Source of the DNA: Sphingobium sp. KCTC 72723 | GTDB taxonomy: Bacteria; Pseudomonadota; Alphaproteobacteria; Sphingomonadales; Sphingomonadaceae | Length of the DNA: 64,000 bases | Direction: 5' to 3' | NCBI RefSeq assembly: GCF_014280435.1 | Contig: NZ_CP060388.1 | Coordinates: 1,860,001-1,924,000, forward strand | In this document: positions 18,703-21,191 of the stretch, piece by piece | Layout of the letters: each line of letters opens with the position of its first letter | How positions within the stretch are numbered: position 1 is the stretch's first letter | Program-made: the position numbers and the translations under genes | The notes under the pieces: model-generated | Told to the model about the DNA's origin: nothing | Databases searched by the model: none | The model's input: only the letters and a program-made list of their open reading frames with translations

Positions 18703-18916
18703 GGCCCACGCATAGCGGACGCCACGCGCCTTTGCCAAGCAAGGGAATGATGCGCGGCCAAAAGGGCGAGTTTCTTTTGCGACAGCGCCCACCCCAACCC
18801 ACCCCGTTAACCTCTCCCCCGCCACCCGTCCCATCCCGGCACAGCCCCAAATCCGGGGAGGAAGTGGAAAGATATTTGCCCTAAGGGCGATACTCGCGGC
18901 AAATGAAGGACGTATG

Positions 18917-19867
18917 ATGCAGGCAATGGGGTGGAAAGGACGTAGCGCGATCGGCGCGCTTGCCCTGTTCGCGCTCGTCGCGCCGCGCCTGATCACCGCC
19001 GCGCCGCTCGACATGCTCGACGGCATGGATAGCCCGGCGCAGGACGATCCGGCCGAGGACGCTGCCGCCAACTTCCCCGGCTCTGCCTTCTTCTATGCGC
19101 AGGGCGCGTTCGATCCCGTCCCCGGCGTGGAAACCGTGCGCAGCCAGCATGTGCTGGGCCTGGATGCCGTCAAAGCCGCGCCCGCCGCGATATTTCGCGG
19201 CCTGACCAGCCTCGACAGCTATCGCGCGCTCAATTGCCTGACATCGGCGGTCTATTATGAGGCCGGGAACGAACCGGACGAGGGCCAGCGCGCCGTGGCG
19301 CAGGTCGTCCTGAACCGCGTGCGCAGCCAGCTTTGGCCCGACACGGTGTGCGGTGTCGTCTATGAAGGGTCCGAACGCACCGACTATAAATGCCAGTTCA
19401 CTTTCAGCTGCGACGGCGCCATGGCGCGGATGCCAGCGCCTGCGCTATGGGCGCGGGCGCGGCGCGTGGCGCAGGATGCGCTGGCGGGCCAGGTCTATGC
19501 CCCCGTTGGCCTGGCCACCCATTATCACACGCTGGCCGTCCGCCCGGTCTGGTCGTCCAGCCTGTCGCCGGTCGCCGTCATCGGCGCGCATATATTTTAC
19601 CGCAACCCCGGCTTTAATGGCACCCCGGCGGCCTTTCGCGCGGCCTATCTGGGGCATGAAATGATTTCCGGCCCTGCGCGGCGCGTCTGGCCCGCGCGCC
19701 CGGTCGTGCCAGTGGACGCCATCGCCGCACCCTATACTGTTCCAGCTACGCCAGCGATCGGCTGGACCCCGCCAGCGCCGCGCCGCGCCGCGTCCGACCG
19801 CGACGACGATCTGCCGCAATCGACGATCCGCCCGGAATATCGCAACAGCGGCCGTCCGCTGATCTGA
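18917..19867 (+). CDS. SleB-type cell wall hydrolase, secreted
   Basis: Peptidoglycan hydrolase of the Hydrolase_2 family (SleB/CwlJ), expected to cut glycan strands as a lytic transglycosylase. A signal peptide (about the first 28 residues, ending near ITAAP) is followed by a linker and the catalytic domain from residue 95: LTSAVYYEAGNEPDEGQRAVAQVVLNRV contains the family YYEA-E-GQ-AVA-V-LNR pattern in separate parts, then CQFTFSCDG and THYHTLAV. The last 70 residues are Pro/Arg-rich. GAAGGA lies three bases before ATG 18914 and six before ATG 18917; the second is preferred. Divergent from cysK. Confidence 0.88.
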   Translation: MQAMGWKGRSAIGALALFALVAPRLITAAPLDMLDGMDSPAQDDPAEDAAANFPGSAFFYAQGAFDPVPGVETVRSQHVLGLDAVKAAPAAIFRGLTSLDSYRALNCLTSAVYYEAGNEPDEGQRAVAQVVLNRVRSQLWPDTVCGVVYEGSERTDYKCQFTFSCDGAMARMPAPALWARARRVAQDALAGQVYAPVGLATHYHTLAVRPVWSSSLSPVAVIGAHIFYRNPGFNGTPAAFRAAYLGHEMISGPARRVWPARPVVPVDAIAAPYTVPATPAIGWTPPAPRRAASDRDDDLPQSTIRPEYRNSGRPLI

Positions 19868-19897
19868 CAGCCCCTTTCGGCTAAGTCTTTTGATTCG

Positions 19898-19923
19898 AAC
19901 CAGATTAAAATTTCTGGTTTTTT
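19898..19923 (+). terminator. Rho-independent terminator of the SleB-type gene
   Basis: AACCAGA (19898-19904) pairs with TCTGGTT (19913-19919), with an AT-rich inner part that can extend the stem, followed by a run of six T. It lies 31 bases after the hydrolase stop. Confidence 0.7.
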
Positions 19924-19930
19924 CGCGGAA

Positions 19931-20062
19931 GAACGGGAACCCATCGCCCGATCATGGGTTCTACACTTCGGATAGCAAATCTTTTGCCCCCCGCTCTTTG
20001 CTATCCACATATATGAGCCCGGAACGCTTCCCCCCCGACACGTTCCGGGCTCAGACTTTTTT
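19931..20062 (+). ncRNA. Candidate structured small RNA with C-rich loops
   Basis: No ORF fits this stretch, yet it folds into three successive perfect hairpins: 8 bp, GAACCCAT (19937-19944) with ATGGGTTC (19954-19961); 10 bp, GGATAGCAAA (19970-19979) with TTTGCTATCC (19997-20006); 12 bp, GAGCCCGGAACG (20015-20026) with CGTTCCGGGCTC (20041-20052). The loops of the second and third carry runs of six and seven C. The last hairpin is followed by a T run, as a Rho-independent terminator. This is the layout of alphaproteobacterial trans-acting sRNAs whose C-rich loops pair with Shine-Dalgarno regions. The 5' end and promoter are not identified; the start is set after the upstream terminator. Confidence 0.6.
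20015..20060 (+). terminator. Strong terminator hairpin (3' end of sRNA candidate)
   Basis: A perfect 12-bp GC-rich stem (20015-20026 with 20041-20052), 14-base loop with seven consecutive C, then AGAC and six T (20057-20062). No protein gene ends just before it, so it most likely ends an RNA gene. Confidence 0.8.
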
Positions 20063-20189
20063 GGGGCCGCTTCATCCTGAAATCATTATATTTTCGCACG
20101 CGGAACGCTTTTGCGCACGATGGGTTTTCCCCTTGTCGCCAACATGGCGCGTCCATGTCGGCCAATGAATTTTTCGAAGGAGATAATCC

Positions 20190-20318
20190 ATGACCAAGAA
20201 AATCCTGACCGCTCTGCTGCTCACCGGATCGCTGATGGTAGCGGCGTGCAACACGGTCGAAGGCGCTGGCCGCGACGTGCAGAGCGCTGGCAAGGCTGTC
20301 GAAAAAGTCGGCAACTAA
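20190..20318 (+). CDS. Entericidin-type small lipoprotein (42 aa)
   Basis: MTKKILTALLLTGSLMVAAC is a lipoprotein signal with the acylated cysteine at residue 20; the mature part is only 22 residues, NTVEGAGRDVQSAGKAVEKV. NTVxGAGxDVxxAGxAV is the entericidin A/B (EcnA/EcnB) pattern, an envelope lipoprotein proposed as toxin/antidote in enterobacteria and widespread, with unclear role, in alphaproteobacteria. AAGGAG lies 8 bases before the ATG. A long 5' leader of over 100 bases separates it from the sRNA terminator. Strong terminator at 20358. Confidence 0.9.
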   Translation: MTKKILTALLLTGSLMVAACNTVEGAGRDVQSAGKAVEKVGN

Positions 20319-20393: not shown

Positions 20394-21191
20394 TCAGGCA
20401 GCGACCTCGTCCCCGTCCGCATCGTCTTGCGCGCGCGCGACTTTCGCCTGCCGCCGGTCGGTGAACCAGATCGCGATCAGGGTGATTTCGTACAGCAGCA
20501 GCAAGGGAATCGCGAGCATCAGCTGCGAAACGACATCGGGCGGGGTCAGCACGGCGGCCAGGATGAACGCCGCCACGATCATGTACCGCCGCATCCCGAT
20601 CAACTGCGCCCGCGTCACGAAGCCCGAACGGTTGAGCAGCATCAGCAGCACCGGCATCAGGAAGCAGATGCCGAACGCCAGAATGAACTGCATCACCAGC
20701 CCCAGATAGGCATCGGCGCTGGGCAGCGCCTCGACCTGCAAACCGCTGCTGTTACCCTGAAATTCCAGAAAGAAGTGAAACGCCATCGGCATCACGACGA
20801 AATAAGCCAGGCTCGCCCCCAGCGCGAACAGGAAGGGGGTGGCCAGGATGAAGGGCAGCAGCGCCTTCTTTTCCTTGGCATATAGCCCCGGCGCGACGAA
20901 CGCCCATAGCTGGTTGGCAATGATCGGAAAGGACAGGCAAAACGCCCCGAAGAACGCGATTTTCACCTGCACGAAAAAGGCTTCGTACAGCTTGGTATAG
21001 ACCAGCTTGCCCCCGCCATCGCCGAACGCTTCCTTGAGCGGATGGACGAGGATGGCGAATAATTGTTCGGAAAAATAGAAACAGACTGCGCCCGTCAGCA
21101 CCAGCGCATAGACGCATTTGAGCAAGCGGCCACGCAATTCGATCAGATGATCGAGCAAGGGCGCCTTGCTCTCGTCAATATCGCCGATCAT
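20394..21191 (-). CDS. tatC: Sec-independent protein translocase TatC
   Basis: Six-span receptor of the twin-arginine translocase; binds Tat signal peptides. The 265-residue product has the N-terminal LLDHLIELRGRLLK (cytoplasmic signal-peptide site with its Glu), PFILATPFLFALGASLAYFVV spread over one span, and PDVVSQLMLAIPLLLLYE near the end. ATG overlaps the tatB stop by ATGA. Order tatA-tatB-tatC is standard, and follows scpB as in other alphaproteobacteria. Confidence 0.97.
   Translation of the reverse strand: MIGDIDESKAPLLDHLIELRGRLLKCVYALVLTGAVCFYFSEQLFAILVHPLKEAFGDGGGKLVYTKLYEAFFVQVKIAFFGAFCLSFPIIANQLWAFVAPGLYAKEKKALLPFILATPFLFALGASLAYFVVMPMAFHFFLEFQGNSSGLQVEALPSADAYLGLVMQFILAFGICFLMPVLLMLLNRSGFVTRAQLIGMRRYMIVAAFILAAVLTPPDVVSQLMLAIPLLLLYEITLIAIWFTDRRQAKVARAQDDADGDEVAA

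Follow-up and report, generated by a model that had tools for sequence, protein, structure and literature searches.

Under stress, PhyR removes NepR and so frees EcfG, and the EcfG responses of alphaproteobacteria have been mapped mainly for protein genes. Alphaproteobacterial RNAs of the RF00519 suhB family, with the MmgR and CcsR RNAs and the motif CCUCCUCCC, have C-rich loops, and some have sibling copies. The closest described regulator is GsrN of Caulobacter crescentus, an RNA of approximately 100 nt with a general-stress sigma promoter, a 5′ six-C loop and a 3′ terminator (PMC5869019, eLife 2018). According to extracts of that paper, many GsrN targets are G-rich, the C-loop acts on katG, BLASTn matches were confined to the Caulobacteraceae with further candidates in rhizobia, and no apparent gsrN-like gene was reported for Erythrobacter litoralis (PMC5869019). 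Excerpts of a review describe SuhB of Sphingopyxis granuli as a 61 nt RNA that is raised at high growth rate and acts as an Hfq-dependent repressor of thnR (PMC6563040), and PmaR of Agrobacterium is described, likewise in excerpt, as interacting via an accessible C-rich loop within a spoon-like structure of one long stem (PMC6234868). The EcfG motif was given as GGAAC-N16-CGTT in Sphingopyxis, with variable −10 boxes that include GGTT (PMC7083833), and as GGAAC-N17-20-GTT in S. melonis (PMC6599016); the terms ‘sRNA’ and ‘small RNA’ are absent from the main texts of these two sphingomonad regulon studies.

Our study revealed, in the genome of Sphingobium sp. KCTC 72723 (4.43 Mb, two contigs), a locus that compares closely in layout with GsrN. 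The locus lies within a window of 64 000 nt (NZ_CP060388.1, positions 1 860 001 to 1 924 000), which is the whole stretch of DNA analysed here, and its features are collected in Table 1. Judging from sequence comparison, positions 19967–20062 probably encode a trans-acting small regulatory RNA that is transcribed by EcfG and ends at its own terminator. With its relatives in many sphingomonads, this RNA suggests that their stress response has an RNA arm not described until now, and it was absent from the open-licence PubMed Central matches listed.

Table 1. Features of the RNA locus and its neighbours (positions within the window)
Feature	Position	Strand	Details
Cell wall hydrolase (Hydrolase_2), upstream neighbour	18914..19867	+	Pfam PF07486, E 1.2e-26
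Terminator-like hairpin of hydrolase, with T run	19898..19923 (about)	+	By eye; not listed by consensus scanner
EcfG-type promoter (hairpin one of the first-pass annotation)	19936..19960	+	−35 GGAAC 19936–19940, 17-nt spacer, −10 GTT 19958–19960
Predicted small RNA gene	19967..20062	+	Start inferred, uncertain by a few nt; end is the T run; from fold, conservation and covariation
5′ hairpin	19970..20006	+	Stem GGATAGCAAA/TTTGCTATCC, 10 bp (19970–19979 with 19997–20006); CCCCCC at 19987–19992 in loop, inside TCTTTTGCCCCCCGCTC
Intrinsic terminator hairpin	20014..20062	+	Stem TGAGCCCGGAACG/CGTTCCGGGCTCA, 13 bp (20014–20026 with 20041–20053); loop CCCCCCC at 20030–20036; T6 tail at 20057–20062
Second EcfG-type promoter, before entericidin	20102..20126	+	Motif match, genus alignment
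Entericidin EcnA/B family small lipoprotein	20190..20318	+	PF08085, E 1.5e-8
tatC, convergent downstream neighbour	20394..21191	−	PF00902, E 9.9e-72

In common with GsrN, as that RNA is described in the extracts, the window RNA has a length of about 100 nt, an EcfG/SigT promoter (by sequence, in 117/119 listed named loci) and, in the predicted fold, an exposed C6 5′ hairpin and a 3′ terminator. Unlike GsrN, it has a second C-run in the terminator loop and, in Sphingobium, siblings with unrelated stems. The GsrN family is typically found near ecfG-nepR-phyR, although not in C. crescentus. The window RNA is distant from that locus: on contig 1, nepR lies at 1.59 Mb and the RNA at 1.88 Mb, some 290 kb apart. 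For katG, a target of GsrN, no PF00141 peroxidase match was found in the window's own genome. Because the locus and katG features are missing and the likeness to GsrN is one of layout, we file the window RNA as working like GsrN rather than as a proven member of the GsrN family. No Rfam family matched the window RNA; for RF00519 (suhB, CcsR), in particular, there was no match at the gathering score, nor up to an E value of 10, and the RNA has plain C runs instead of the motif of that family. SuhB of Sphingopyxis is a sphingomonad small RNA too, set apart here by its description (61 nt, against a predicted 96 nt), whereas PmaR shares the C-rich loop and differs, as described in the excerpts, in its single long stem and in having no EcfG link. 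If our reading is correct, a conserved EcfG-controlled RNA and its siblings would provide a post-transcriptional stress arm for widespread soil, water and pollutant-degrading bacteria, and the GsrN kind of regulator would extend past Caulobacter and rhizobia.

The first-pass annotation had described three perfect hairpins of 8, 10 and 12 bp, with six and seven consecutive C in the loops of the second and third and a T run after the last. All three hairpins are present, although the third has 13 bp, and both C runs and a run of six T are where they were described. The RNA gene thus reads as a C6-loop hairpin, a short linker and a C7-loop terminator, and its fold (19967–20062) was estimated at −39.9 kcal/mol with a z score of −8.17, none of 200 shuffles being equally stable. 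The broader stretch 19910–20070 gave a z score of −3.9, again with 0/200 shuffles equally stable. The third hairpin is absent from the list of the consensus terminator scanner because its loop is longer than the scanner allows. A terminator of the hydrolase's own, also claimed in that annotation, can be recognized by eye as a terminator-like hairpin but was equally unlisted by the scanner.

Sequence comparison bore out a structured plus-strand element with a terminator near 20062 and conserved C-rich loops. Mean column identity was 89 % across 30 genus sequences, and the 5′ hairpin and its loop were nearly invariant among the aligned relatives. Compensatory changes, which had been named beforehand as the sequence test of the structure, were found in both stems. 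In the genus alignment, which was not fitted to the structure, 3 of 22 pairs had changed on both sides (7 cells), compared to none in all six slid controls; in alignment A4, which was fitted to the structure, both sides had changed in 13/22 pairs, with 116 cells, compared to 27.6 in shuffles and no more than 17 in any slid control. Across 39 sequences, pair 8 of the 5′ helix was A-U in 14 and G-C in 25, and pair 4 was U-A in 33, C-G in 3 and U-G in 3. In distant members (e.g. L284, L287 and L299) most of the stem was replaced, while the C-loop and promoter were kept.

Hairpin one (GAACCCAT/ATGGGTTC, 8 bp) had been taken as part of the RNA, but its sequence marks it as a promoter of the EcfG type (general stress response) that lies outside the RNA, the GGAAC-N17-GTT boxes being complementary by chance. 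Its form agrees with the EcfG motifs published for sphingomonads, as given in the extracts (PMC7083833, PMC6599016). The motif is not rare in the window (7 matches compared to 4.7 expected), and therefore what counts is that it is conserved. Among 30 genus loci the spacer varied and both boxes were kept, with GGAAC-N17/18-GTT in 30/30. Of the listed named loci, 119 extend 50 nt or more upstream of the RNA, and 117 of these have an EcfG promoter there, whereas random 50-nt windows contained one in 154 of 20000 cases (0.77 %). The distance from the end of GTT to the hairpin was exactly 9 nt in 116 of these 117 loci; the two loci without the motif both read GGAACC-N-ATT. Furthermore, GGAAC and GTT were recognized by eye upstream of 29/29 best-scoring loci from a search with R1, a covariance model that covers the RNA and does not include the promoter. 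The boxes thus stay in relatives and the stem does not: across 149 loci (30 genus and 119 named), inward Watson–Crick pairs extending the stem averaged 0.34, compared to 0.32 when shuffled, and 192/1000 shuffles were as high. The window was an outlier with four pairs. The stem of hairpin one shows no sign of selection, and the window's spacer extends it by chance. As the promoter lies outside the RNA, the expected transcript is about 96 nt and not the 130 nt or so that had been proposed with hairpin one included.

By blastn (E < 1e-20), the RNA was present in 33/37 genus genomes, its own included; it was not found in G028, G203 and G466 (estimated completeness 99–100 %) or in G034 (91 % complete). 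R1 matched 84/249 family genomes, representing 38/96 genera, at E ≤ 0.1, and 76 family genomes, counted by hand, fell below 1e-5, whereas under these strict filters 165/249 had no match. Absence from these genus genomes and from those 165 family genomes indicates that the RNA is not indispensable. A second model, R2, matched 88/296 order genomes at E ≤ 0.01, all in the window's family, and 24 genomes from the order's other families gave no blastn match better than E 0.2. Among 289 class genomes R2 matched six, two of which belong to the family, while the other four lie outside it and match weakly (E 4e-5 to 0.01). Across the genomes sampled, strong matches were confined to the window's family. 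Named genomes were scanned with a pattern in which stem and loop are fixed and hence present by selection, and this returned at least 120 loci in Sphingobium, Sphingomonas, Sphingosinicella, Sphingomicrobium, Stakelama, Parasphingopyxis, Rhizorhapis and others. Among the 120 loci listed, tatC lay downstream in 103, entericidin downstream in 86 and the hydrolase upstream in 25, counts that are lowered by contig ends and stretch ends. From these counts the location beside tatC looks old, and the hydrolase looks to belong to the Sphingobium-like loci of the sample. The envelope function of the neighbours, which had been pointed out earlier, is no evidence on targets. Entericidin has an EcfG-type promoter of its own that is for the most part preserved across the genus alignment, and it therefore looks like a general stress gene.

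Our study also revealed predicted sibling RNAs in Sphingobium. These were sought in 61 genus genomes as an EcfG promoter followed after 12–42 nt by CCCCCCGC, a pattern by which promoter and C6 are present by selection and stems and second loop are not, and 91 matches were obtained compared to 18 for the backward pattern. On reading, 56 were of the window type (one each in 56/61 genomes; six with a GGATGG/GGACGG stem) and 35 were others. Of 25 of these 35 examined, 21 had both a 5′ hairpin enclosing the C-run and a second hairpin resembling a terminator, although several are near-identical copies and not independent; the second loop held at least five C in 19/21, L323 and L366 being without such a run. 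L317, L370, L371 and L372 were rejected for lacking the layout, and L305, L311 and L318 were set aside because they lie inside long open frames. Stem types among the siblings include GTCGGACG/CGTCCGAC and GAGGCCGCC/GGCGGTCTC, and none of ten loci that hold siblings or distant members matched Rfam at the gathering score. The window's own genome carries a second copy (L319 1501–1625, contig 1 from 4116915) with an EcfG-type promoter, a C-loop hairpin, a C-loop terminator and stems unrelated to those of the window RNA. Sphingobium yanoikuyae carries another stem type, L357, on the conjugative plasmid NZ_CP139980.1 (136388–136528), the terminator of L357 having been missed by the folding script and recognized on separate reading; the feature listed under this match is a thermonuclease family protein. 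The window RNA itself had no plasmid match. On sequence comparison, the Sphingobium siblings share a layout and have unrelated stems. That sphingomonads carry a family of sibling twin-C-loop general-stress RNAs, in one to several copies per genome, with stems free to change and loops kept, has in our estimate an even chance of being right. If so, two like loops would let one molecule, or siblings additively, hold many G-rich mRNA leaders at once, and the stress response would gain a post-transcriptional switch controlled by dose.

In the mechanism we propose, stress would free EcfG and the RNA would accumulate, its U-tail may be bound by Hfq, and pairing of the C-loops with G-rich stretches in mRNA leaders would alter translation or stability. 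EcfG itself only activates genes, and therefore the sibling RNAs would add a post-transcriptional arm, similar to GsrN, to the sphingomonad general stress response. Genes for NepR, PhyR and Hfq are present in the window's genome. The Hfq gene (L195/L196, contig 1, 922920–923345) has two Hfq domains in a single open frame of 166 codons. Pairing with Shine–Dalgarno sequences, as put forward in the first-pass annotation, is something we infer. The complement of loop one had seven matches in the window's own genome at up to two mismatches, one of which is the RNA gene itself, compared to four for the backward control. The best of these (L198 1501–1520) lies in the start region GGGCGGGGGGCAAAATATG of a response regulator gene, with 15 bases pairable including one G-U, and is the sole near-perfect complement near a start codon in this genome; it is not conserved, as 21 close orthologues keep just a short G-run. 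When a second target pattern, GCGGGGGGC near ATG, was searched in 14 genomes, the 20 matches that were read lay mostly inside long open frames, and L266 and L270 could be gene starts. Neither search found a conserved mRNA target.

This last result would also fit an EcfG-controlled RNA whose C-loops bind a protein, as a sponge or decoy, rather than mRNA, and twin repeated C-runs with covarying stems would suit a protein-binding repeat. We know of no candidate protein for binding such C-loops. GsrN, which depends on a stress sigma factor and has a loop of six C, works by mRNA pairing according to the extracts (PMC5869019), and overall we regard a protein decoy as unlikely. A 5′ UTR leader that controls the downstream entericidin in cis is a considerably poorer prospect. 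Entericidin does follow in the 86 of 120 listed named loci and it too sits behind an EcfG-type promoter, but that promoter is its own and a strong terminator intervenes; moreover, no entericidin was detected in the other 34 listed loci (some of them cut at their ends), among them loci in which tatC comes directly next, and the sibling copies are located elsewhere.

The third hairpin is a good terminator on which tatC converges in 103/120 listed loci, and the stretch might on that account be a conserved intergenic terminator pair only, for example protecting convergent tatC, with no regulatory RNA. This would leave unexplained why the promoter keeps a fixed distance, why the 5′ hairpin and its loop hardly vary and why there are siblings, and we hold it to be highly improbable. 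The probability of a small protein is very slight indeed. Helix two has an ATG at its base in 98/120 listed named loci and, despite the earlier description of a gap without an ORF, a mechanical ORF with a TTG start (19890–20168) spans the site; however, coding was rejected, because the reading frame across the RNA is not kept (split 40/35/18 among the 93 loci placed of the 120 listed) and changes follow base pairing.

A trans-acting RNA under EcfG control remains our preferred reading, and the weak and outlying matches suggest that its layout may be found beyond this control. Of the four class matches outside the family, none had the EcfG motif in the 150 nt upstream; L070 (G605) and L072 (G570) each form two hairpins on folding, both loops holding a run of five or more C, whereas L071 and L073 have no C-loop pair. 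As both fold in this way, L070 and L072 do not look like plain chance; they may represent analogues that answer to another regulator, or they may reflect the model's preferences. Among 20 weak or outlying matches, a promoter was found by regular expression in 14, in the promoter and C6 scan for L302 and L303, and by eye, as a near variant, for L300; none was found in the 150 nt upstream of L295, L296 and L297. The frame script had misplaced L303, and in L291 and L300 the hairpin escaped the simple fold. Despite the missing motif, L295 (G108) and L297 (G104), both within the family, have two C-loop hairpins in a row, while the first loop of L296 is without a C-run. A TTGACA box was seen by eye upstream of L295. 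From L070 and L072 the C-loop layout would not always be tied to EcfG, and L070, L072, L295 and L297 possibly represent the same RNA layout under other control, in which case they would be the same tool put to use by another regulator. In G284, a family genome, a second RNA (L298/L316) has a loop identical to that of the main copy, a different stem and an EcfG-type promoter.
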